This document shows, in pieces, positions 2,169 through 33,081 of a DNA stretch of 39,105 nt. The notes beneath the pieces were generated by a model. The model was not told the DNA's origin. It ran no database searches and worked only from the letters and a program-made list of their open reading frames with translations. The DNA is from a virus, in IMG/VR virus record IMGVR_UViG_3300018420_000002, positions 1 to 39,105 of that record; one strand, written 5' to 3'. The first letter of the stretch is position 1. Every line of letters begins with the position of its first letter. The position numbers and the translations under genes were made by a program.

Positions 2169-2595
2169 GAAGAACAGGAAGAAGTTTGATTTAGATTTAG
2201 CATACGGTCAGATGCACGAAGACAGAGTGCTAGAAATGCTACAAGGTAAGAAGGTTGAAGTTAAAACAGAGAGAGGTATGTGGACTAAGACAGGAAACAT
2301 AGCAATCGAGTTTGAATCTTATGGTAAACCATCAGGCATCAATGCAACGGAAGCTGACTACTGGTTTCATAACTTAGCAGTTGGTGATGATGTTTACTGT
2401 ACCTTGGTCTTTGAAGTAGAGAACTTGAAGAAGATTGTAGAGAAACTAGACAACCATCGCATTGTTAAAGGCGGTGACCACTGGGCATCTAAGATGTACC
2501 TCGTCAACCTTTCTAAGTTATTCTCAACTGACACGCTAAAAATTTATAAACAGCTATCCACGGAGGCAACTAATGAAGAGAACACTACTGATTGA
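2125..2595 (+). CDS. PD-(D/E)XK-like protein between polymerase and exonuclease genes
   Basis: About 156 residues if started at ATG 2125; ATG 2098 and ATG 2053 are possible earlier starts, and none has a well-spaced ribosome site. The first part overlaps the end of the polymerase gene in another frame. The core reads FDLDLAYGQMHED, then KKVEVKTERG, GNIAIEFESYGKPSGI and TEADYWFHNL. An acidic residue followed by a strand ending E-V-K and a later TEADYW is the layout of PD-(D/E)XK nuclease-fold proteins. The family looks common in marine T7-like phages. Whether it cuts DNA or only has the fold cannot be decided from sequence. It is linked to the exonuclease gene by a 23-base overlap. Confidence 0.75.
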   Translation: MENTTSETTGLRPTKKNRKKFDLDLAYGQMHEDRVLEMLQGKKVEVKTERGMWTKTGNIAIEFESYGKPSGINATEADYWFHNLAVGDDVYCTLVFEVENLKKIVEKLDNHRIVKGGDHWASKMYLVNLSKLFSTDTLKIYKQLSTEATNEENTTD

Positions 2596-3295
2596 TGGAG
2601 ACATAGTAGCCTATCGCTACTCCAGTACAGTAGAGCAAGAGGTGGACTGGGGTGACGATGTCTGGTCGCTCTGGTCTGACGCTAAGGAAGCCAAGCAGTT
2701 AATCCTACAGTACCTTGACCACTTGGTTGAGGCTACCGCAGCAGATGACTTTGTATTTACATTTTCTGACAAGGATAACTTCAGGAAGGCTATCTACCCT
2801 GACTATAAACATAATAGGAAAGGGAAGCGTAAGCCCACTTGCTATAAGGGAGTAAAGACTTGGCTTGAGTCTGAGTATGAATCTATCGAGATGCCTGGGT
2901 TAGAAGGTGACGATGTGATGGGCATACTTGCTACGTCTGGAAAGTACGAAGAGACAGTCATTGTTTCTGAAGACAAGGACATGAAGACAATCCCAGGTTT
3001 GTTATGGAGAGCCGCAGAGATGGAAGAAATATCTGAGGAATATGCAGATTACTACCATCTATATCAAACCCTAGTGGGTGATGCCACTGATGGCTACAAA
3101 GGTTGTAAAGGTATTGGTGACAAGAGAGCCACTGACATCCTGAGCAAAGACCCTACATGGGAAGCCGTAGTCAAAGCCTATGAAAAGGCTGGTCAAACTG
3201 AAGAGGAAGCCTTGGTACAAGCTAGGTTAGCTAGAATACTAAGAGCATCTGATTACAACACACAAACAAAGGAACCAATATTATGGACTCCATAG
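2573..3295 (+). CDS. T7 gp6-like 5'-3' exonuclease (FEN/RNase H family)
   Basis: 240 residues, somewhat shorter than T7 gp6 (300). Motifs in order are LLIDGDIVAYRYS (metal-binding D8 and D10), DKDNFRKAIYPDYKHNRKGKRKP (arch region with basic residues), EGDDVMGILA, VSEDKDMK, and the helix-hairpin segment GDATDGYKGCKGIGDKRA. These are the acidic metal sites and DNA-binding hairpin of the 5' nuclease family. In T7 this enzyme removes RNA primers, degrades host DNA and takes part in recombination. ATG 2573 has GGAGG eight bases upstream and overlaps the previous gene by 23 bases. Confidence 0.95.
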   Translation: MKRTLLIDGDIVAYRYSSTVEQEVDWGDDVWSLWSDAKEAKQLILQYLDHLVEATAADDFVFTFSDKDNFRKAIYPDYKHNRKGKRKPTCYKGVKTWLESEYESIEMPGLEGDDVMGILATSGKYEETVIVSEDKDMKTIPGLLWRAAEMEEISEEYADYYHLYQTLVGDATDGYKGCKGIGDKRATDILSKDPTWEAVVKAYEKAGQTEEEALVQARLARILRASDYNTQTKEPILWTP

Positions 3296-3687
3296 ATGAT
3301 ATGACACCCCAAGAGTGGGACAAAGTAACAAGCGATTGGAAAGAAACAGCAGCAAACGCAGCTAAGAATGTGTCCCCAATCAAGCAAGACTTTCAACCTG
3401 TAAAGAAGTTCAAGTTACCTAAAGATGCACAGACTAGGAAAACTATCCCAGCTTACACAGGTTTTGTTAAGTATTTCCCTAGAGCAATTACAGAGGTAGC
3501 AAGAGTCTCTATGATTGGTGGTATTCAACATGGGCAGACCCCTGAAACTTTACATTGGGACAGGGCTAAATCAGGCGATGAGTTAGATGCCATGATGCGA
3601 CACGTTATTGATGAAGACTGGGCGCAGGTAGCTTGGCGAGCTATGGCTAACCTAGAAAAGTTCTTAGAACGCGAAGAAGACAATTAA
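3283..3687 (+). CDS. dATP/dGTP diphosphohydrolase N-terminal-like domain protein
   Basis: 134 residues. The second half reads GFVKYFPRAITEVARVSMIG, then ETLHWDRAKSGDELDAMMRH and AWRAMANLEKFLE. This resembles the DUF5664/dGTP-diphosphohydrolase N-terminal family found in many phages, where a conserved H-W-D and a histidine-ended helix (D-A-x-x-R-H) recur. Known members are proposed to act in nucleotide metabolism. The N-terminal 60 residues are charged and probably not structured like the rest. It overlaps the exonuclease gene by 13 bases and is the last gene before a phage promoter, so it closes the replication operon. The family assignment is from memory of the pattern. Confidence 0.7.
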   Translation: MDSIDDMTPQEWDKVTSDWKETAANAAKNVSPIKQDFQPVKKFKLPKDAQTRKTIPAYTGFVKYFPRAITEVARVSMIGGIQHGQTPETLHWDRAKSGDELDAMMRHVIDEDWAQVAWRAMANLEKFLEREEDN

Positions 3688-3702
3688 TACCCACCATATA
3701 AG
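3682..3702 (+). promoter_or_regulatory. Candidate phage RNA polymerase promoter, copy 1 (structural genes)
   Basis: AATTAATACCCACCATAT (3682-3699) followed by AAG. The same 18 bases occur at 28103 and 35716. The element begins TAATAC and ends CATATA-AG, like the T7 consensus TAATACGACTCACTATAG. It sits in the 25-base gap ahead of the head-gene block and overlaps the stop codon of the upstream gene. This is where T7 places class III promoters. Confidence 0.75.
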
Positions 3703-3712
3703 AGGACTTGAA

Positions 3713-3904
3713 ATGTCAACAAACAAACAAATTGAAAGTTTACCCGTCAGTGTTGATGAGACACTAGCTATGCTAGACCAAGTGTTTCCTGAACTGTCTG
3801 CTCGATTAGAGTGGTCAGAGAAAGAAATATGGTTTAGAGCAGGACAAAGGTCTGTAATCAACTGGCTGTTAGAGTTGAAAAGACGGGAAGAAGACCCTAA
3901 CTAA
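3713..3904 (+). CDS. Conserved small hypothetical protein
   Basis: 63 residues. ATG 3713 follows AGAGGA at 3701-3706. It contains SVDETLAMLDQVFPE and WSEKEIWFRAGQRSVINWLLELK; the second segment recurs in short phage proteins of unknown function. It is the first gene after promoter copy 1, so it should be transcribed with the structural genes. No membrane segment or catalytic motif is visible. Confidence 0.8.
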   Translation: MSTNKQIESLPVSVDETLAMLDQVFPELSARLEWSEKEIWFRAGQRSVINWLLELKRREEDPN

Positions 3905-3920
3905 ACCAGAGGATTTTACC

Positions 3921-4244
3921 ATGTGTGACCCCATATCATTAGCTATTATTGGCAGTACTGTTGTAAGCGCAGGTATTGCAGACCATCAAGGAAGTAAGCA
4001 GCGCGAGCAGATGAGAAAGCAAGCTGAAGAGGCAGAACGTCAGAGAAAAGAACAGCAAGCTAAGTTTGATGCAGAGAGTGCTGCGGCTAGAGCAACCCCT
4101 ACGCTTTTACGTAACGCAACCCAGAAAAGCGGTACCAAGCGTTTAGCTTCACTAAAGGTTAAGAAAAGCGGTGGCATGGGTACTGGGTATAACTCTGTAG
4201 GCACAGGTGGCTCAACATCCACGGGACTAAACATACCTAAATAA
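3921..4244 (+). CDS. Putative small virion protein (T7 gp7.3 position)
   Basis: 107 residues. It starts MCDPISLAIIGSTVVSAGIAD, a short hydrophobic segment, then has a charged helix rich in Gln, Glu, Lys and Arg (about residues 27-50) and a glycine/serine-rich end. T7 gp7.3, a 99-residue tail-associated protein, lies at the same place just before the portal gene and has a comparable build. The assignment rests on position, size and the MCDP start that I recall from marine podoviruses. Confidence 0.65.
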   Translation: MCDPISLAIIGSTVVSAGIADHQGSKQREQMRKQAEEAERQRKEQQAKFDAESAAARATPTLLRNATQKSGTKRLASLKVKKSGGMGTGYNSVGTGGSTSTGLNIPK

Positions 4245-4256
4245 TAGGAATAAGTT

Positions 4257-5795
4257 ATGAATGAGATTACTTCCTGCGCCAAGCGTTACCACAAACTAGC
4301 AGCAGACAGGGAGATTTATCTTGATAGAGCTAGAGAGTGTGCTGAATTAACACTCCCTTCTTTGATAACTCCTGAAGGCTTTAGCTCCGCTACTGACCTT
4401 TACCAACCGTTTCAAAGCATTGGGGCTAGAGGTGTCAACAACTTAGCCTCTAAGCTAATGCTATTACTTCTCCCACCTAACTCGCCTTTCTTCCGTTTAG
4501 CAATGGATAGTAAAACCAAAGCTGAACTAGATGGTGAAGGTGAGTTACGAGCAGAGATTGAACAGGGTCTTGCTGGTATCGAAAGAGAAGTGATGGGTGA
4601 GATAGAGAACAGAGCCTTACGGGTAAACTTCTTTGAAGCACTTAAGCACTTGATTGTAAGCGGTAATGTATTAGTACACCTTCCAAAGAAAGGAGGACTG
4701 CGTGTCTTCCCTATGTCGAGCTTTGTTGTAAAACGTGCGCCTGACGGGGAGTTACTAGAAGTAGTATTAGAAGAGTCTGTGTCACCCAGAGCATTGCCAG
4801 AAGGTATAGAAGGTATTGACTACACAGGTGATGAAGACCTTAAGTTATACACAAAAGTATACAGAGTAAACTCTGATATATACGAAGTTTATCAAGAAGT
4901 TGAAGGGCATGTAGTCCCAGGTTCTGAGGGTAGATATAAGAAAGACCTCATGCCTTGGCTTGCCTTACGTATGGTACACCTTGATGGCGAAGACTATGGT
5001 CGCTCTTTCGTGGAAGAGTATCTAGGAGACCTGAAGTCCCTTGAGGGATTGACGGAAGCATTGGTTAGCTCCGCAGCAGCTAGTGCTAAACTAGTGTTTA
5101 TGGTGCGCCCTAACGCAAGTGTCCGAAGAACTGACCTAGCCAAAGCAGATAACGGTGATGTAATACTAGGTGACCCTAACGATGTTAGTGTACTACAGAC
5201 AGAGAAGTACCCTGACATGCGTGTGGTACTTGATACCGTTCAACGAATTGAAGAAAGACTTTCCTATGCGTTTCTTTTGAACACAGCGATTCAGCGCAAT
5301 GCTGAGAGAGTAACTGCTGAAGAGATACGCTTTATGGCTCAAGAGTTAGAATCCGCATTAGGTGGTGTCTACTCTGTTCTGAGTCAAGAAATGCAACTAC
5401 CTCTCGTCAACATACTGATGAAGAGAATGTCTGCAACTAAGAAGATTCCTAAGCTACCTAAAGGTACTGTCACCCCAGTTATTGTTACTGGTGTGGAAGC
5501 ACTTGGCAGAGGAAACGACTTAAATAAACTACGCACTTATATCACTGACCTTGTGTCATTAGCTCAGGTTTCTCCTGAGACAATACAACGTGTCAACTTC
5601 GGTGACCTAGTAACTCGATTAGCTACTGGTCATGGGATAGATACGATAGGTCTGATTAAGACTGAACAGGAACTACAAGCTGAGATGGAAGCTCAACAAC
5701 AAGCTATGCAGGAGCAGATGCAACAACAGACTATGCAAGATGTAGCCAGCAAAGCTATACCAGAAGTTGTGAAGGCTAATATACAGCAACAATAG
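4257..5795 (+). CDS. Portal (head-tail connector) protein, T7 gp8-like
   Basis: 512 residues against 536 for T7 gp8. Typical segments are CAKRYHKLAADREIYLDRARECAELTLP near the start, then FQSIGARGVNNLASKLML, LLPPNSPFFRL and AERVTAEEIRFMAQELE. The last 45 residues are Gln-rich, as is usual for the connector C-terminus. The dodecameric portal sits at one capsid vertex, docks the terminase during packaging and holds the tail. ATG 4257 has AGGA seven bases upstream. It is followed by a 55-residue gene and the scaffold gene, the standard order. Confidence 0.96.
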   Translation: MNEITSCAKRYHKLAADREIYLDRARECAELTLPSLITPEGFSSATDLYQPFQSIGARGVNNLASKLMLLLLPPNSPFFRLAMDSKTKAELDGEGELRAEIEQGLAGIEREVMGEIENRALRVNFFEALKHLIVSGNVLVHLPKKGGLRVFPMSSFVVKRAPDGELLEVVLEESVSPRALPEGIEGIDYTGDEDLKLYTKVYRVNSDIYEVYQEVEGHVVPGSEGRYKKDLMPWLALRMVHLDGEDYGRSFVEEYLGDLKSLEGLTEALVSSAAASAKLVFMVRPNASVRRTDLAKADNGDVILGDPNDVSVLQTEKYPDMRVVLDTVQRIEERLSYAFLLNTAIQRNAERVTAEEIRFMAQELESALGGVYSVLSQEMQLPLVNILMKRMSATKKIPKLPKGTVTPVIVTGVEALGRGNDLNKLRTYITDLVSLAQVSPETIQRVNFGDLVTRLATGHGIDTIGLIKTEQELQAEMEAQQQAMQEQMQQQTMQDVASKAIPEVVKANIQQQ

Positions 5796-5807
5796 GTACA
5801 ATAAATA

Positions 5808-5975
5808 ATGGCAACAACACCCAAAATGACTTTAAAGAAAGATAACCCGAAGGATGCAACACCTAAGAAAGAAAAGAAGGTTGAGTATCCTAAGTGGCCT
5901 GGAATGGAAGCTGCTGAATTAGGCGTGAAGTATCAGAACGCTAGAGGCAATATTATTCAGCGAGGGAAAAGCTAA
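5808..5975 (+). CDS. Small lysine-rich protein between portal and scaffold
   Basis: 55 residues. The first 25 are very rich in Lys and Pro, and the rest reads YPKWPGMEAAELGVKYQNARGN. The stop codon overlaps the scaffold start (TAATG), so the two are co-translated. An AGG lies at 5794-5796, about a dozen bases before ATG 5808. No family is recognised. The position suggests a minor head component or assembly factor; this is inference. Confidence 0.75.
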   Translation: MATTPKMTLKKDNPKDATPKKEKKVEYPKWPGMEAAELGVKYQNARGNIIQRGKS

Positions 5976-6721
5976 TGGTTGAACAAGTACAGGTAGAAGG
6001 AAATGTTACAGGCTCTGAAGCTCCAGTGGAGCAACCTCAAGAAGCTCGTCCAGAGTGGTTACCAGAAAAGTTTAAGTCTGGTGAAGACCTCTCTAAAGCG
6101 TATAGCGAACTGGAAAAGCAATACACTCAGTCTCGTCAAGAAGCAGCTACAGCTAAAGAAACAGAAGCTAGTAATGAAGTATCGTCAGACCAAACTGAAA
6201 GTGCTTCAGAAGCTAGAGAAGCTGTAGAAAACGCAGGGCTAGACTTTGATTCAATGCAAACGGAATTTGCAGAGAACGGTGAACTCTCTGAGGACACCTA
6301 CAAAGACCTTGAAAGCAGGGGCATACCAAAAGAAATGGTAGATGCTTATGTTGATGGGCAAAAAGCTAAGGCTACTGAATACACTAACGAGATATTTGAG
6401 TTCGCTGGTGGTGAAGAGTCTTACAAAGGTATGCTCGAATGGGCATCCGACAACATGGCTGATAGTGAGATAGATGCTTTTAATGATGCTATCAGTTCAG
6501 GTAACACATCTCAGGCAAGACTAGCTATTGATGGATTAGTATCAAGATACAGGGATAACGGTGGTGCAGAACCTACATTGTTAGGTGGTAAAGCCTCTGC
6601 CTCTGTAGATACTTATAATAGCTGGGCGCAGGTTACCAAGGATATGGGAACCACTGAGTATAAGAAAGACCCCGCCTTCAGAGACGCAGTCCAGAAAAAG
6701 CTCTCACGAAGCACACTTTAA
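5975..6721 (+). CDS. Capsid assembly scaffolding protein, T7 gp9-like
   Basis: 248 residues, strongly acidic, Gln/Glu/Ala-rich and predicted mostly helical. Near the N-terminus it has RPEWLPEKFKSGEDLSKAYSELEKQY, a pattern typical of podoviral scaffolds. The C-terminus turns basic (FRDAVQKKLSRSTL), as in scaffolds that contact the coat protein through a C-terminal helix. It acts inside the procapsid and leaves before packaging. Location between portal and capsid genes agrees. T7 gp9 is 307 residues. Confidence 0.92.
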   Translation: MVEQVQVEGNVTGSEAPVEQPQEARPEWLPEKFKSGEDLSKAYSELEKQYTQSRQEAATAKETEASNEVSSDQTESASEAREAVENAGLDFDSMQTEFAENGELSEDTYKDLESRGIPKEMVDAYVDGQKAKATEYTNEIFEFAGGEESYKGMLEWASDNMADSEIDAFNDAISSGNTSQARLAIDGLVSRYRDNGGAEPTLLGGKASASVDTYNSWAQVTKDMGTTEYKKDPAFRDAVQKKLSRSTL

Positions 6722-6868
6722 CCAGCCTTTCTAGGCTGTTAATCAATTCAATACATCCCCAAAAAACAGTAAGGCTCACCGAGGTGAACACCCTTTCAAG
6801 TGAAGTAAGGATTAGCGAATTATCGGTTATTTAATTTACTAACTTAATTTATTTTAAAGGATATTATT
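6722..6868 (+). other. Leader region between scaffold and capsid genes
   Basis: 147 bases without a gene. A perfect six-base-pair hairpin (CAGCCT-ttct-AGGCTG, 6723-6738) directly follows the scaffold stop codon but lacks a T-run. A weak second stem lies around 6775-6790. The last 50 bases are very AT-rich and lead to AAAGGA ahead of the capsid ATG. T7 has its strongest promoter here; I see no good copy of the 18-bp element, only a loose resemblance around 6747-6760. Confidence 0.5.
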
Positions 6869-13438: not shown

Positions 13439-13450
13439 TAGGTGAATTAT

Positions 13451-16400
13451 ATGGGTAAGTTTAGTGATGCTTTAGAGCAACAACAAAGCACTACAGGTAA
13501 GTTTGGTGCAGCTATCTTACAGCAGCAAGCCCCATCAGGATTTAATGCTACTTACCAAGACACTGATGAAACACTGTACGACAATGACCTAGTAAATGAT
13601 GTGAACTTTCAGAAGGCATCTGAAGTTATCTACAACATGAATAACAGTGTAGATGCTGAACGCTTAGGTTCACCAGAAGACTACGCTAGGTACGGTATCG
13701 AGACAATGGGCTGGTTCAACTGGAACTTACCTAAGATGTCTGTAGATGCTAACCGTATCTCTGGAGCTACAGAAGACCAGAAGAAAGCCTTTCTATACAT
13801 GATGGAATCCTATGATGATTTAGGTGTGTCATGGAATGGAGCAAAGCGTTTCTTTAAAGGTGTGTTACTAGACCCTACTACCTATGTGGGGTTGTCTACA
13901 TTTGGTTTCGGCCTATTAGGTAAGGAAGGGACTAAACAAGCAGGTAAGCAAGGTGTAAAAGAATTACTCAAACGCTCAACTAGAGGCGGTATCATTGCGG
14001 GTGTAGAAGCAGGTGTCTATACCGCAGTTGATGATGTAAACAGACAAGTAGTTGAGACTGCTGTATCTGGTGAAGATATAGATGTAGGTAGAGTAGTTAA
14101 GTCTGGTGCTATCGGAGTTGGGGCAGGGTTTACTTTAGGGACTGGCGTTACCGCAATAGTCAACAAGTATGCAGGTAAGTCTACTAAAGAGATAGCTGAG
14201 ACTGTTGATGAAGCTAAGTTAGCTGATGACTTGCCTGAAGTAAAAGATGTAGTTGTAGAAGAGCCTGTTGAGGAAGTTGTTGCAGAGGTTGTTCCCCCTG
14301 CTCCTATTGACACTAGAGGGCAGGGACAGCAATACCACGGCACATCTACAGAGTTAGGGGAGTTTGGTGAAGGGCATGATTACTACTCTAGCATGAACAT
14401 TTATGGGCAGGGATTCTACACCACTGACGCTTTAGATGTTGCAGGGGGGTACAGTAAAAAAGGCAAAGGCGGTAACCCTACTAAGTACAAAGTTATCAAG
14501 ACTAATGAAGCAAAGTTGTATGACCTTGATAAGCCTTTAGATGACGAAGCCTTGGAGTTGTTAAGTGAGTCCACTGAGTTTGGGGCTGATTGGCTACAAG
14601 ATATGGCTCCTAACCCTACAGTTCGGGATGCCTTCGATGAGCTAAGAGATTGGTCTGCTGGTGAGGGCATACCTGCTGATGAAGTACAGGAGATGTTTGA
14701 CAGCTTTAGGTACTTATTGGAGCAAAAAGGTTTCCAAGGATACACCCATGTAGGCGGAGGGTTTACTGGGACTAACTCACACAAGGTTGAAATCTTTTGG
14801 AACCCTAAAGACCATGTACGTTTAGAGAAGATAGAGGATGCTCCTGTAGCACCTAAAGAGCCTGTAGCACCTAAAGAGCCTGTAGCTCCTAAACAGCCGA
14901 TAGTAACAACAGGAGAGCGAATCCGAGAGAACCTTAATGGTGTAATCCAAGCTATCAAGCGTACAGTTCCTACAGGTAAAGCTGCATCATTACGTCCAGA
15001 TGGCACTCAGGACTTAACTGAGCTAGTAGAGTCTGTAGCTCCCTTCAAACAAATGCTTGAGGAAGCCTCTGCTAAGAACCCACAGGAACTTGCAGAATAC
15101 CTGAAGAAGATAGAACTCTCTGATGGGGAAGCACAGTTCCTTGAAATAGCTACAACCCAGACAGTATCTGCACTTAAGGTTAAGGTTTATAACTTACGTC
15201 TTAAGCAAAAGCAGTTAGATGGCGAAGAAGCTCTAGCAATCCAGAAGCAAATCGATGAGATAGAAGAAGTCACTGCACCTCTGGATGAACTAGATGTAGC
15301 TATGTCTACTATCACAGGGCAACGCTTACGAGCTAGACAAACAGGTGAGAACACAGGTGCGCTAAGAGGCAAAACAATCCAAAGCCTTATGGCTGAGGGG
15401 CTTACCCGTACAGAAGCTGAACGTCAGTTCGATGCTATCTTTGCAGAGAAACTACAGAAGCGTGAAGTGCGTGAAGTCACTGCTAAGTTTGATGCTCAGA
15501 TAGAAGAAGCTAGAAAGGCTGGTAACACTTCTGAGTACCTAAGACTTAAGCATGAGAAGAAAGTAAAGTTAGATGAGTTTAAGCAAGATGTCATAAAGGA
15601 AGAAAGTCTAACTGGTACAGGTATCTACGAAGCTATCAATAAGCCTATCAGAGTTATGAATGAGGTGATGATTAGCTTCGTATTCTCTCCAGCTACTCTG
15701 ATTGTAAACACCGTACCATCACTAGCTAAGTCTCTTTATAAGCCTTTCCTTAACAACTTAATGCAGGATGGTTTAACTGCTACGTCTAGGAAGAAGATGG
15801 TGGCTGAGTATTCAGCTATGGCATCTATGATTCCTACAGCAGCTAAGATGGCTAAGGCTGCATGGCGTTACGAGAAGTCTATTCTGACAGGTGACTCTGC
15901 TAGATTCTTAGAAGAGTACAATGTTATCCCTAAGAAATACAAAGGGCATTGGCTGAGACTATTCCCTAGAGCCTTGCTTGCTACCGATGCGTTCTTTGAG
16001 AACATTCATTACAGAGGCTACACAGTAGGTAATGCTACTGGTAAGGCTATGGAAGAGGGTGTAGCTAAAGGGCTGAAAGGTAAGGAGCTAGATGACTTTG
16101 TAAAAGCACAAACTCAGAAAGCCTTAGATAAAGCCTATGCACCTGAAGAGACTGCTATCGACATTCTATTACAAGAGGGTATCTCAAGAGGACTGAAAGA
16201 CAAAGAGCTAGAGAACTTTGTCAGTAAGGAACTCGCTAATAATGAATCTACCTTTGTCAAAGCTACTGACCAAGAGGGGCGTAACTACGTTCAAGATGTT
16301 CTCTTCAAACGAGACTTCTCTGGTAAAGGAGCTGCCTCAAGTGCTGCAAGAGGGTACGAATCATTTGTAAACAAACACCCTGTAATGCGTTTAGCAGGGC

Positions 16401-17641
16401 AGTTGTTCTTCCGTACACCTGTGCGTGTATTTGAGGAAGGCATAAGAATGACTCCAGGGCTTAACTTAGTTAGTCCAAAATTCATTGCTGACCTGAAAGG
16501 TGATAATGGCACTATGCGCCAAGCAAGAGCGCAGGGCGAAGCTATGATGTCTTATGCCATAGCGGGCTATGTGTTTACACAGTATGCCACAGGTAATCTT
16601 ACTGGTGCTATGGGTACAAACTATAAGCAAAGAAGACAGGGAGAAAACACGGGAGGACAGGAGCCATACTCAATTAAATTTAGTGATGGCAGTACCTTTA
16701 ACTACCGTAACTTCGACCCCTTCTCTACGCCTATAAAAATACTTGTTAATGCTATGGAAAGAGCAGAGACATTAGCATACAGAAGAGAGCAAGGTGAGCG
16801 TGTTAGTGATGACCTTATTGCACAGACACACGCATCTGTATCGATTGCTGTAGCTTCTATCTTCCAATCTATCCGTGACGCTAACCTTACATCAGGTATC
16901 GATGAAGTAATTAAAGTTATCAAGGCATCAGAAGATGAGGATGGCGGTGAGAAGTTGTTTAAGTATTTCGGACAGAAAGTACAGACATTCTTACCTAATA
17001 CATACTACAAGATGCAGTTACTTGATAGTCCTGTACTTGGTGACCCCATTACGTTAGAGCAGTTCATCAGACAGAGATTCAACCCTGATGACCCATTAGT
17101 ACCTAAGCAATACACTGCACTAGGCAGAGCAAGAACGCTTAGTAACCCTGCTGCGGGACTATACTACTTCAATACAGCTACTGTAGATGAACGTAAGCGT
17201 GGCGTACCTGAGAAGGAACTAGAGGTAGAACAGTTCTTATACAAACTGGCTCAGGTAGGTAACACACACTTTACGGCTTCCTACAAGTACGAAAAGTATA
17301 TGGGCGATGTAGACCTTAGAACTCAACCAACTAAAGACGGCAAGGAAAGCTACTACGATAGATGGATGAGATATACCCATGAAACTAAAGTAGGCGGTAG
17401 AGGACTGGTAGATGTTCTACACAGTATTCAAGGCTTACCTATGGGTACAGCATCCACAGCAGGAATAGCTGAAAAGCAAACTAGAAACATCATAAATAAG
17501 TACCGTGAGATTGCTATGAACAAGTTACTTAATGAAGAAGGTAACTTAATACAACAACGCAGAAGCGTACTTGAAAAAGAGAATAACGCCCTTTCAGGAC
17601 AGCGTTCTTCAGACAATGTACCGTTTAATATTGGGAATTAA
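13451..17641 (+). CDS. Giant internal virion (ejection) protein, T7 gp16-like, with inserted ADP-ribosyltransferase-like domain
   Basis: 1396 residues from ATG 13451 (AGGTGA upstream); GTG 13442 is less likely. T7 gp16 is 1318 and starts with a transglycosylase domain; I see no such domain here. Instead residues about 293-465 read YHGTS (Y295-H296-G297-T298), GQGFYTTDALDVAGGYS (319 on) and KVEIFWNPKDHV (E447), the order expected of an ADP-ribosyltransferase fold. This segment lies between a Val/Glu/Pro linker (about 258-293) and a repeated VAPKEP linker (about 463-482). The rest is helical with hydrophobic patches, and residues 868 and 908 begin two copies of a 20-residue motif (E/Q-E-G-x-x-x-G-L-K-x-K-E-L-x-x-F-V). 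The protein should be ejected into the cell with the DNA. Confidence 0.9.
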   Translation: MGKFSDALEQQQSTTGKFGAAILQQQAPSGFNATYQDTDETLYDNDLVNDVNFQKASEVIYNMNNSVDAERLGSPEDYARYGIETMGWFNWNLPKMSVDANRISGATEDQKKAFLYMMESYDDLGVSWNGAKRFFKGVLLDPTTYVGLSTFGFGLLGKEGTKQAGKQGVKELLKRSTRGGIIAGVEAGVYTAVDDVNRQVVETAVSGEDIDVGRVVKSGAIGVGAGFTLGTGVTAIVNKYAGKSTKEIAETVDEAKLADDLPEVKDVVVEEPVEEVVAEVVPPAPIDTRGQGQQYHGTSTELGEFGEGHDYYSSMNIYGQGFYTTDALDVAGGYSKKGKGGNPTKYKVIKTNEAKLYDLDKPLDDEALELLSESTEFGADWLQDMAPNPTVRDAFDELRDWSAGEGIPADEVQEMFDSFRYLLEQKGFQGYTHVGGGFTGTNSHKVEIFWNPKDHVRLEKIEDAPVAPKEPVAPKEPVAPKQPIVTTGERIRENLNGVIQAIKRTVPTGKAASLRPDGTQDLTELVESVAPFKQMLEEASAKNPQELAEYLKKIELSDGEAQFLEIATTQTVSALKVKVYNLRLKQKQLDGEEALAIQKQIDEIEEVTAPLDELDVAMSTITGQRLRARQTGENTGALRGKTIQSLMAEGLTRTEAERQFDAIFAEKLQKREVREVTAKFDAQIEEARKAGNTSEYLRLKHEKKVKLDEFKQDVIKEESLTGTGIYEAINKPIRVMNEVMISFVFSPATLIVNTVPSLAKSLYKPFLNNLMQDGLTATSRKKMVAEYSAMASMIPTAAKMAKAAWRYEKSILTGDSARFLEEYNVIPKKYKGHWLRLFPRALLATDAFFENIHYRGYTVGNATGKAMEEGVAKGLKGKELDDFVKAQTQKALDKAYAPEETAIDILLQEGISRGLKDKELENFVSKELANNESTFVKATDQEGRNYVQDVLFKRDFSGKGAASSAARGYESFVNKHPVMRLAGQLFFRTPVRVFEEGIRMTPGLNLVSPKFIADLKGDNGTMRQARAQGEAMMSYAIAGYVFTQYATGNLTGAMGTNYKQRRQGENTGGQEPYSIKFSDGSTFNYRNFDPFSTPIKILVNAMERAETLAYRREQGERVSDDLIAQTHASVSIAVASIFQSIRDANLTSGIDEVIKVIKASEDEDGGEKLFKYFGQKVQTFLPNTYYKMQLLDSPVLGDPITLEQFIRQRFNPDDPLVPKQYTALGRARTLSNPAAGLYYFNTATVDERKRGVPEKELEVEQFLYKLAQVGNTHFTASYKYEKYMGDVDLRTQPTKDGKESYYDRWMRYTHETKVGGRGLVDVLHSIQGLPMGTASTAGIAEKQTRNIINKYREIAMNKLLNEEGNLIQQRRSVLEKENNALSGQRSSDNVPFNIGN

Positions 17642-22642: not shown

Positions 22643-23494
22643 ATGTCAAAAGCTAGAGACTTAGGGGATGCAGCAAACCAAGCAAACTTCCTCGATAATG
22701 TAACTTCAGATATAAACACCAGCCTTAACTCAGCAGCAGCAATTCCCGCAGGTCTTATCTTACCCTTTGGTAACACTACAGCTCCCACAGGTTACCTAGC
22801 ATGTGACGGTTCAGATGTATCTAAAGAAACATACGCTAACCTCTTTGCAGCTATAGGGACTACCTGGGGGACGGCAGCTACCCCTACAACCCACTTCAAG
22901 CTACCTGACCTCAGAGGAGCCTTCCTGCGGGGGTCGGGTTCTCATGGCACAAGCAACATGGCAAACGGCAGTGCCTTTGCTGGGCAAGCTGTGGGTAGCT
23001 TTGAGAATGACCAAGTGCAAAACCATGCTCACACTATAACACTCGGTTATAATTCTAATGGCTCTACAGAAACAACAGCATCAACCACAAACGGTGCAAA
23101 CACTTTTACTTCTGGCAGAGCTGGCGAAGCATCGGCAATGGTAGTGAATGGTCAAGGAACCCCAAGAACAGGTGACGAAACCCGACCATTCAACGCAGGG
23201 ATACTCTACTGCATATCTACAGGCCCTTCAGTGGTTTCTAGTGGTTCTGGTGGTTCAGGTGGTTCAGGCAGTGGTGGTGGAACTGGTGGCGGCACAAGTA
23301 GTGGCGGTGGGTCAAGTAGCGGTGGCGGTAGCAGCAGTGGTGGCGGTAGTAGCAGCCCTACATCAACAACACCACACGCTAACTTTATGTCCACTGACGG
23401 AGAAATACTTGTAGATTCTACGGGAGAGGTACTAACAACAGAGACTGTAGACGATACAGTTGCACAGGTGAATACTAAACTAGGCGGTCTATAA
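22643..23494 (+). CDS. Short tail fiber with tail-collar domain and Gly/Ser linker
   Basis: 283 residues, with AAGGAGG upstream of ATG 22643. Residues about 33-140 form a tail-collar domain: IPAGLILPFGNTTAPTGYLACDG, then YANLFAAIGTTWG, FKLPDLRGAFLRGSG and a His-containing segment, QNHAHTITLGY. Such domains trimerise and bind receptors. After the conserved end GILYCISTG comes an almost pure Gly/Ser run of about 45 residues (DNA 23239-23353), then a 40-residue tail ending VDDTVAQVNTKLGGL. The C-terminal tag reappears in the next protein. The gene is joined to the subtilase gene by TAATG. Confidence 0.9.
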   Translation: MSKARDLGDAANQANFLDNVTSDINTSLNSAAAIPAGLILPFGNTTAPTGYLACDGSDVSKETYANLFAAIGTTWGTAATPTTHFKLPDLRGAFLRGSGSHGTSNMANGSAFAGQAVGSFENDQVQNHAHTITLGYNSNGSTETTASTTNGANTFTSGRAGEASAMVVNGQGTPRTGDETRPFNAGILYCISTGPSVVSSGSGGSGGSGSGGGTGGGTSSGGGSSSGGGSSSGGGSSSPTSTTPHANFMSTDGEILVDSTGEVLTTETVDDTVAQVNTKLGGL

Positions 23495-25296
23495 TGGTTA
23501 AAGAATATTTAATTACGTTTGCAGAAGGGGTAGATAAATCAGAATATTACTCTGAAGTAGGGAATATTACATACGATTATCCCGCCCGCCCTAAGCTATT
23601 GCTTGCAGAGCTTTCAGATGTGCAAAAAGAAGCACTAGAAAATAATCAAAATGTAAAATTTGTTGTTGATTATAATGAAATGAAAGCTAGGGCAACGGCA
23701 TCTGACTGCGCTACTAGGTCAGTTACTTATCACAGATACCTACAATCAGGGGAGTATGTCACACGTTCTGGTAACGCATCTAATGTAACTAAAGCTAATT
23801 ATGGCTTAATAAGGCATACTTCCGCTACTAATAGTACAAGTACAGACACAGATGTAACCACAAACTACACCTACAATTATGACGGTACTGGGGTAGATTT
23901 AATCCTACATCTTGCAAGTGTTTTAGACCTACAAGACCCAGAGTTTATGACATCGGGAGCCACCCGAATCCAACAGCTTCAGTGGAACACAGTATCAGGA
24001 ATGTCAACCATACCTACTGTAGACTACTCTAGGACAGGCTCTGACATAAATGACCACGCAGAAGCGGTAGCCTACCTCTGTGCATCAAACACCTATGGGT
24101 GGGCTACGGGAGCTACTATATATATTTGGCCTAGAGACCAAATGGTAAATGCTGCTGGTCAAGACCAAACAGAAGAGTGGAGTTGGGACGCTATACGTCT
24201 ATGGCATCAAAACAAAGGGAACAGTAGGCCTACAATAGTGGTTTCTGCTATAGGTTATAGTGCATCGCTTTCCCCATTTCAGTATGAGACAACTAATAGA
24301 CTCCATTACAGGGGGGTTGATTACACCACAATTAATCCAGCAGGGGCAGGTGACCTGCCTGTACCTGAAACCAGAGGAGACAGACAGGGCAGAGCATGGG
24401 CCGCCTTTGGACTTGACAATGATGATATTGCTGAGATGCCGCTAGTGGGGAGACACCAATTACCCTACGGGTCTTCCATCTACAATTTAGATGCTCTTTC
24501 AGCAGACATCATAACTTATTGCGACACTCCCAGTACCAATGATAATTATGCGTCACACGTGGAACCTATTGAAGACATGACTGCGGCAGGGGTTCACCAT
24601 GTTGCTGCGGCAGGAAATAATGGGATGCCCGTCCATCTTTCTAGCCACCCTGATTACGATAACTTTATGACTAAAGGCGCAGCTAGTCTTGACAGATATA
24701 GTAACCCTCCAACTCAAGTTAATTTTGACGCTACGTTTTATACCCGCCCTTCTCCTATAATGGGAGGAGACACTATAGTATGCGCTAATATAGAGTCGAA
24801 ATTTGGCACTGCATACGGTTTTGGAGGAAAAGAACACCTTGCCCCGTCCTCTAATAAGGGGTCAAGAGTAGACTGCGCTGCTGTAGGGACTAATATACCA
24901 TTAGATTTACGCAGTAACGGCTACTATACATGTTTTGGTACTTCATTTGCCAGCCCAAATATAGGGGGAATGGCGTGTTTAGTTTTAGAGAAATACCCTA
25001 GCACAACTCCAGCACAATTAAGGAAATACTTTAGAGACCACGCTGTTGGTACTGATAAACTTTATGACTCAGGAATACAGCCTGTTATATCCTCAAAGTA
25101 TGGAGACGCAGCGTATGAGTATGATTTCGCTGGGCTAAAAGGGTACTCAGGTAATATTGCATACTTAGACCCTAGTTTAACCTTTGACCCAACTACTATT
25201 ACTGACACATCTATCACCTCAACAGTAACACTGGTTGATAATGAGATTGATTACACCACAGCGCAAATAAACACTAAATTAGCTACGTTACCTTAA
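23494..25296 (+). CDS. Subtilisin-like (S8) protein of the tail locus, catalytic Asp apparently absent
   Basis: 600 residues. The first 65 resemble an I9-type inhibitory propeptide (KEYLITFAEGVDKSEYYSEV through QNVKFVVDYNE). The catalytic domain shows a His motif, NDHAEAVAYLCASNTYGWATGATIYIW (H188, against HGTHVAG in active enzymes), the oxyanion motif HHVAAAGNNG (N375), and the nucleophile motif FGTSFASPNIGGM (S484). The Asp motif region reads GTGVDLILHLASVLDLQDPEF (131-151). It keeps G-x-G-V and D-P-E-F but has A-S where D-(T/S)-G is expected. The C-terminus, IDYTTAQINTKLATLP, matches the end of the upstream collar protein. It may be a virion protease, a pseudo-enzyme, or a structural descendant. 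No signal peptide is seen. Confidence 0.85.
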   Translation: MVKEYLITFAEGVDKSEYYSEVGNITYDYPARPKLLLAELSDVQKEALENNQNVKFVVDYNEMKARATASDCATRSVTYHRYLQSGEYVTRSGNASNVTKANYGLIRHTSATNSTSTDTDVTTNYTYNYDGTGVDLILHLASVLDLQDPEFMTSGATRIQQLQWNTVSGMSTIPTVDYSRTGSDINDHAEAVAYLCASNTYGWATGATIYIWPRDQMVNAAGQDQTEEWSWDAIRLWHQNKGNSRPTIVVSAIGYSASLSPFQYETTNRLHYRGVDYTTINPAGAGDLPVPETRGDRQGRAWAAFGLDNDDIAEMPLVGRHQLPYGSSIYNLDALSADIITYCDTPSTNDNYASHVEPIEDMTAAGVHHVAAAGNNGMPVHLSSHPDYDNFMTKGAASLDRYSNPPTQVNFDATFYTRPSPIMGGDTIVCANIESKFGTAYGFGGKEHLAPSSNKGSRVDCAAVGTNIPLDLRSNGYYTCFGTSFASPNIGGMACLVLEKYPSTTPAQLRKYFRDHAVGTDKLYDSGIQPVISSKYGDAAYEYDFAGLKGYSGNIAYLDPSLTFDPTTITDTSITSTVTLVDNEIDYTTAQINTKLATLP

Positions 25297-31789: not shown

Positions 31790-32072
31790 GATTGATGGTG
31801 AGATGCAAGCACAAGCTATGGCAGTGCTATTGAAAGTCGCAAAGAGTCCTTTGCCTCTGAAGATGCACGACATAGCGGTAGAACTTGGGCTTAGTCAGTC
31901 AACTATAAGCAGGAATGTAGCTTATCTTGGTGACTGGAATAGGCGCAAAGAGGCAGGGCATAAGCTAGTGGAAGCCTACGAAGACCCTGCCGAACGTAGG
32001 CGCAAGCTAGTGAGATTGACAGCCAAAGGTAAGCGGTTTGTCAAATCACTAAATGAAATTATCTACTCATAA
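31701..32072 (+). CDS. MarR-type winged-helix regulator
   Basis: 123 residues. PLKMHDIAVELGLSQSTISRNVAYLGDW is the helix-turn-helix, and the wing region EDPAERRRKLVRLTAKGKRFVKSL closely follows the MarR pattern (D-P-x-x-R-R, L-T-x-x-G). The N-terminal helix is the likely dimerisation part. ATG 31701 has only a weak CGGAA site and lies inside the upstream gene. It ends ten bases before the integrase start. MarR-like genes in this position also occur in marine cyanopodoviruses, to my knowledge. It may set the lysis-lysogeny balance or early transcription. No CI-type repressor is visible, so it is one of two regulator candidates. Confidence 0.88.
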   Translation: METIIKLEESQINHHQAASSLLKIIERFREIDGEMQAQAMAVLLKVAKSPLPLKMHDIAVELGLSQSTISRNVAYLGDWNRRKEAGHKLVEAYEDPAERRRKLVRLTAKGKRFVKSLNEIIYS

Positions 32073-32082
32073 GGAGTATGTT

Positions 32083-33081
32083 ATGCCAGTAAGACAGAGA
32101 GGTAACTCATGGCAAGTCGATGTCCGAAAGAAAGGCATCAGGTTTCGCCATAGTTATCAAACAGAAGACCAGGCTAAGGTCATGTTAGCTAAAGTAGAAG
32201 AAGCTATTAGTCTAGGAAAGGCACTGCCTGACCCTGAAGACTGCAACGATGGTAAAGCTATGACTATCGCTGTCCTTTTAAGGAAAGCTGCTGATAAATA
32301 CTGGAGTGACTCAAGTCATGGGTCGAAGAACACTTCAGTCATTGAAGAAATCATTGCTCATGTTGGGGAGAATGTGCCTTTATCTGCACTGAATCTTGAG
32401 ATGATTGATGAGTTGATTAGCTACTGGAAAAAGAAAGGTAATGCCAGTGCTACTGTCAACAGGAAGCTGAGTGTCTTATCCAAAGCAACCACATACGCTA
32501 AGGATAGGGGGTTCATAGACTTTAAGCCTAAGATTGAATGGCAGAAGGAAGGTAAAGGTAGGGTCAGGTTTGTTACTGACCAAGAAGAAGCTGATATGTA
32601 TCGTGTGCTGACCCAGATGGGCTACTTTCAGGAGCGAGATATATTCATGTTCCTGATAGACACAGGTATGCGTGTTGGTGAACTGAGTAGTATCAGGCTT
32701 AGTGACTTGATAGGTAACAAGCTGCCTATCTGGGAAACAAAAGCAGACCATCCAAGAACTGTTGTCTTAACCAAAAGGGCTAAGGATATTTTTGTTAAGT
32801 ACAAGGGGCATCTTGGTATCCCTTATCGCAGATTGATAAGCCATTGGAACCACATGAAATGTGCATTGGGTCTTGAGCATGATGACCAGTTTGTCATCCA
32901 CTGTTTAAGGCACACCTGTGCATCTCGATTAGTTCAGCGTGGCATCTCAATCATGGTGGTGAAGGAGTGGTTAGGACATAAGAATATTCAGATGACAATG
33001 AGGTACGCTCATCTGTGTCCTACCAATTTAGAACAAGCGGTAAAAGTGTTGGAACCTAGTGTGACAAAGAAGGTGGCATGA
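32083..33081 (+). CDS. int: Tyrosine recombinase (phage integrase)
   Basis: 332 residues from ATG 32083 (AAGGAG six bases upstream). An N-terminal arm-binding segment (RQRGNSWQVDVRKKGIRFRHSYQTEDQAK) is followed by a core-binding helical domain. The catalytic domain has R197 (TGMRVGEL), H273-x-x-R276 (IHCLRHTCAS), H299 (WLGHKN) and the nucleophile Y308 (MTMRYAHL); a lysine lies in TKADHPRTV. All canonical residues are present, so it should be active. It would join phage and host DNA at att sites. T7-like phages with integrases upstream of RNA polymerase are known in marine cyanophages and pelagiphages. No excisionase was recognised, although small early proteins could serve. Confidence 0.96.
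   Translation: MPVRQRGNSWQVDVRKKGIRFRHSYQTEDQAKVMLAKVEEAISLGKALPDPEDCNDGKAMTIAVLLRKAADKYWSDSSHGSKNTSVIEEIIAHVGENVPLSALNLEMIDELISYWKKKGNASATVNRKLSVLSKATTYAKDRGFIDFKPKIEWQKEGKGRVRFVTDQEEADMYRVLTQMGYFQERDIFMFLIDTGMRVGELSSIRLSDLIGNKLPIWETKADHPRTVVLTKRAKDIFVKYKGHLGIPYRRLISHWNHMKCALGLEHDDQFVIHCLRHTCASRLVQRGISIMVVKEWLGHKNIQMTMRYAHLCPTNLEQAVKVLEPSVTKKVA

Follow-up and report, generated by a model that had tools for sequence, protein, structure and literature searches.

This locus raises the question of what a subtilase fold is doing in a phage tail once its catalytic aspartate has gone. It lies in an IMG/VR virus record of 39,105 bases (the window), which carries a T7-like gene set—T7-type RNA polymerase, DNA polymerase, terminase, and tail-fibre N-domain—plus an integrase. 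The open reading frame concerned (23494..25296, +) encodes a 600-residue S8-fold protein without Asp32. Its start overlaps, in the sequence TAATG, the stop of the gene for a 283-residue tail-collar-domain protein (22643..23494, +; Pfam Collar, E 1.7e-18); downstream follow a 90-residue ORF, a holin, and then terminase genes, so that tail-fibre/collar genes flank it on one side and lysis/packaging genes on the other. Two further features of the window deserve mention in their own right. A 1399-residue protein (13442-17641), encoded between internal virion and tail-fibre genes, shows weak similarity to ADP-ribosyltransferases (ART-PolyVal, E 0.0036, which misses Pfam's cut-off). The integrase gene (32053-33081) sits upstream of the RNA polymerase in this T7-like phage, and no tRNA gene was found within the window.

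The protein is a subtilase-fold protein, S8 by fold and descent. Pfam Peptidase_S8 matches only its Ser half (residues 340-517, E 2.4e-14); the remainder of the fold was read from an AF2 model built from 107 aligned sequences of the window and related contigs (pLDDT 86, pTM 0.83), after a model from 9 sequences had been poor (pLDDT 59). VIA-align superposed the better model on aqualysin I with Z 30.1 over 269 residues at 2.3 Å. In this model the strand 135-140 ends at L140, as expected for the Asp strand, the helix 187-197 holds H188, and S484 stands at the start of the helix 483-500. The initial annotation had also proposed an I9-like propeptide (residues 1-66; 23494..23691, +), and its support comes from the fold: modeled residues 3-59 run strand-helix-strand-strand-helix-strand, the order of the I9 propeptide, Foldseek matched the model to pro-subtilisin E (3whi), and a homologous segment forms a separate ORF in the related viral contig L298 (L-numbers denote such contigs). 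A match to the Pfam I9 family, by contrast, was not found in the protein. The protein departs from the canonical S8 catalytic site at the Asp and in the His motif; the catalytic His, Ser, and oxyanion Asn are present.

Alignment places L140 (codon CTT; 23911..23913, +) opposite the catalytic Asp32, within GTGVDLILHLASVLDLQDPEF, where Asp-bearing relatives carry D, as in GKDVDVVIVDAHVNPNHPEF of cyanophage S-CREM1. The motifs on either side align, as the initial annotation had maintained, and together with the modeled strand they bear out its central claim that the Asp motif is lost. The query by itself retrieved no relatives in a scan, and alignments were needed to find them. Scans of viral contigs then gave 29 distinct sequences (query included) in which the Asp32 position holds no acid, alongside 99 that have Asp there. 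The suspicion that a whole clade might have lost the residue also proved right: an acid occupies the position in 0/29 members, which instead carry L, I, T, V, A, or G, mostly Leu or Ile. With the two key columns masked before tree building, the Asp-less sequences form one branch (SH-aLRT 100; 24 clade members in the tree), and both alignment and tree indicate common descent with Asp-bearing relatives, including the cyanophage T4-GC_292-like S8 family. On these sequences, a single loss of Asp32 in the clade is the best explanation.

The rest of the catalytic apparatus is kept. His188 (24055..24057, +) and the oxyanion residue Asn375 (24616..24618, +) are each conserved in 29/29 sequences, and Thr483 with the nucleophile Ser484 (24943..24945, +) in every sequence that reaches that region, so that the assignment of H188, N375, and S484 to S8 motifs stands. 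After thinning, median pairwise identity within the clade is 39%, and the five motif codons (His, Glu, Asn, Thr, and Ser) vary silently across it.

Searches outside the viral contigs gave little. tblastn of the protein against phage records returned nothing at 1e-5, the annotated collection searched held no clear Asp-less clade member among its phage records, and the literature searched contained no description of the clade. A scan of genome contigs brought up nothing but generic S8 genes, with the match in the Ser region; H-x-E occurred in 0/43 of these, a weak control given that the HG(T/S) motif was recognized in only 17. The viral contigs themselves held some variants of the S8 arrangement. 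Two distant S8 relatives (L053, 1248-3155; L017, 9341-11212, −) have Glu in place of Asp at the catalytic acid position. L008 encodes two Asp-less S8 paralogues (1044-2918 and 4995-6737) in one phage tail locus, as also seen in L009, L010, and L014, and L055 carries two adjacent Asp-bearing S8 genes (2276-4984 and 4974-6632).

The second deviation pointed out by the initial annotation, the His motif, is equally real: the query reads HAEAVA rather than an HG(T/S)-type motif. H-(A/S/G)-E occurs in 28/29 clade members, and Glu at His+2 (E190 in the query; 24061..24063, +) is matched by an acid in 0/99 Asp-bearing relatives. The sole exception is L195, which is placed inside the clade, has Lys there (codon AAA), and thus lacks an acid at both the Asp32 position and His+2. 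Across the alignments, E190 is the only near-universal gained acid adjoining the active site, since D135 varies in neither the Asp-less nor the Asp-bearing sequences, D145 is variable, and D148 and D251 are clade-typical without being fixed. D148 (in the thinned set 17 D and 6 N) and D251, where the query has Ser, were both rejected as replacement acids. The loss of Asp and the gain of Glu fall on one long branch and therefore count as a single event rather than as repeated covariation; the same branch also saw the fixation of further clade-specific residues.

Changes extend beyond the two motifs. In savinase, N123, S125, and G65 belong to the zone that surrounds Asp32 and His64 (PMC11593635). 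In the clade, the N123 position is V/I/F, the S125 position A/S, and the G65 position mostly A/S. G127, which we take to be a residue of the substrate-binding strand, is mostly lost. A literature search on what Thr66 does in subtilisin yielded no useful information. As judged from these aligned positions, the nucleophile and oxyanion half of the active site is intact and the acid half has been dismantled or rebuilt.

Our reading of these comparisons, held at slightly better than even confidence, is a serine peptidase whose acid has been rebuilt or is absent. The protein would be a subtilase-derived module of the phage tail for which we infer catalysis, with serine-peptidase chemistry running through Ser484, His188, and the Asn375 oxyanion hole and with the acid side rebuilt. 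His188 might work without a classical acid, in a dyad-like and slow manner suited to self-processing or to local action at the cell surface; or E190 may support His188 by a route other than the classical contact. The invariance of His, Asn, and Ser, kept at such divergence and under silent codon turnover, makes us lean against a plain pseudoprotease. Counting against a peptidase are the altered acid-side and substrate positions (N123, S125, G65, and G127), the Lys at His+2 in L195, and the encoding of the L298 propeptide on a separate ORF. Loss of Asp32 should moreover cost much of the rate unless compensated, because engineered D32 subtilisin mutants are anion-dependent (PMC7935941). Those D32G or D32A enzymes resemble the window protein in lacking Asp32 while keeping His and Ser, and they depend on nitrite or azide; their cavity is open for the anion, whereas Leu or Ile occupies the position in most of the window clade.

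The main competitor, to which we give appreciable weight short of an even chance, is a pseudoprotease: a subtilase fold serving as a structural or receptor-binding tail module without catalysis, in which the surviving Ser, His, and Asn would serve structure or ligand binding. The degradation of the Asp32 position together with the four surrounding positions speaks for it, as does L195 with neither acid, and the separately encoded propeptide of L298 implies that auto-cleavage may be unneeded there. On the question of activity, the pattern of conservation can be read either way. Subtilisin-like precedents exist, and the way in which they decayed differs from what the clade displays. CspA and CspC of Clostridioides difficile have, as here, a subtilase fold with catalytic residues lost, but they lost two triad residues (in CspC, His and Ser, with Asp kept; PMC6636752), whereas the window clade lost only Asp. 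Plasmodium PIMMS2 is subtilisin-like and thought to be a pseudoenzyme, and Asp is missing in one orthologue; in its orthologues the GTS motif is missing and residue loss follows no regular pattern (PMC5520436), whereas the window clade holds His, Asn, and GTS. The known subtilisin-like pseudoproteases lose His or Ser or both (PMC6636752, PMC5520436), and the window clade does not; His, Asn, and Thr-Ser remain invariant across sequences far apart, their codons turning over silently.

A direct relocation of the triad acid to Glu190, which would make a Ser-His-Glu triad whose acid sits on the His helix, is a special case of the peptidase reading and one that we consider unlikely. In its favor, Glu190 is the only nearly fixed acid gained beside the active site, and the S53 family demonstrates that an acid can move to the base helix, at +4 (PMC11593635). 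Geometry is the main objection. We judged the reach from His to the acid by a rotamer test on an ideal helix in place of model distances: Glu at +2 comes no closer to His ND1 than 4.3 Å with His at N1 and 6.0 Å with His at N2, and reaches 2.5 Å only if His is the N-cap, whereas acids at +4, the S53 arrangement, reach contact. Since the helix starts at 187 in the model, direct contact between E190 and His188 would probably require an irregular helix start. The loss of N123, which helps position Asp32, and the Lys at His+2 in L195 count against such a triad as well.

Sedolisins (S53) offer a known parallel to an acid moved off the Asp32 strand, having a subtilisin fold with the acid on the base helix (PMC11593635). 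Their active site comprises a Glu base, Asp at +4, and Asp at the oxyanion site, where the window protein has His188, Val192, and Asn375. The clade departs from S53 at each of these points: the base is His in 29/29, +4 is 22 V and 1 C in the thinned set, and the oxyanion Asn is invariant. None of the 50 VIA-align matches listed was an S53 chain, an absence that we do not count as evidence. A survey of the subtilisin fold describes only two acid placements, those of S8 and S53 (PMC11593635). That the clade represents a third natural subtilisin-fold active site—one that retains His and Ser, gives up the Asp strand, and has a Glu at His+2 that provides the acid function or stands in for it, within a tail cassette whose two proteins share a docking tag—is an idea that we consider improbable.

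Relocation of the acid to D135 or D145, raised in the initial annotation, is very improbable: both lie near L140 in the query sequence, but D135 is invariant in the Asp-bearing relatives too (99/99) and hence not compensatory, and at D145 the clade members vary among D, N, H, K, E, and T. A sequencing, assembly, or alignment artefact is of negligible likelihood, since the sole hint of one is that Pfam covers little of the Asp half, the flanking motifs align, and the same loss in 29 sequences from many contigs excludes the frameshift or assembly error in the Asp segment that had been named as fatal to the claim.

Where the protein works is indicated by gene fusion and context. L298 encodes the same S8 domain as part of a fusion with a T7-like tail tubular protein A (phrog_446, E 6e-48), the tail part of the fusion being 54% identical to a phage tail tubular protein A. 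This fusion and the position in the tail locus, which the initial annotation had recognized, make the S8 protein probably tail-borne. In the same contig, the I9-like propeptide ORF (2781-2996) and the S8 ORF (2998-5433) are one base out of frame (TAATATG); the separation may be genuine or may stem from a single-base error in this contig. The gene is also patchy in its distribution: three phages (L087, L091, and L092) with terminases 94-99% identical to that of the window have no S8 gene, pointing to a cassette that is gained and lost.

A shared C-terminal tag links the S8 protein to its upstream neighbor. The S8 protein ends in IDYTTAQINTKLATLP (25246..25293, +). The collar protein ends, after a Gly/Ser linker (about 23237-23365, +), in VDDTVAQVNTKLGGL, part of a C-terminal module (23390-23491, +) whose ending is TVAQVNTKLGGL. 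Close relatives are untagged: the collar proteins of L091 and L092 have neither linker nor tag at their ends, and the tag is absent from the closest phages along with the S8 gene. A related module ends the upstream ORF at 23 of the 26 clade loci that have upstream sequence, the window included; its typical form is DSxGxxLxDSxGxxLTxxNIxxTxxQINTKLGxI, with some weaker variants among the 23, and the core shared with the S8 tag is TxxQINTKLGxI. The upstream partners vary—collar protein, tail-fibre N-domain, baseplate wedge, or virion structural protein—and in L011-L013 the partner is an ORF of 61-62 residues that is little more than the tag, nearly stand-alone. A DNA pattern for AQINTKLG hit 15 stretches in the whole viral collection, 15/15 on contigs with this S8 clade. 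From this distribution we infer a docking element, with a cleavage site as the alternative. The tag would dock the S8 protein on the tail alongside the tagged collar-type protein, and the peptidase, so displayed, would act slowly or locally; its target may be itself, the tagged partner, or the host surface.

The nearest described relatives are cyanophage proteins: the T4-GC_292 S8 proteins (P-SSM2_297 and S-MbCM7_177), S-CREM1_165, and S-SCSM1_228 are homologous over the propeptide and subtilase domain at 23-28% identity, and they too are encoded among tail-fibre or baseplate genes. They differ in keeping Asp and HG(T/S/I)H motifs, in lacking Glu at His+2, and in having no INTKL tag; they belong to large myoviruses. 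Two possibilities stand for the S8 protein of the window: it is still an enzyme, its active site rebuilt, or the protease has become a part of the tail. A clade with no acid at the S8 or the S53 place and with Ser, His, Asn, and Glu fixed offers a natural test of the limits of triad rebuilding, and a marine phage tail cassette that pairs a tagged tail protein with a tagged subtilase, found in some phages but absent from close relatives, could bear on host range.
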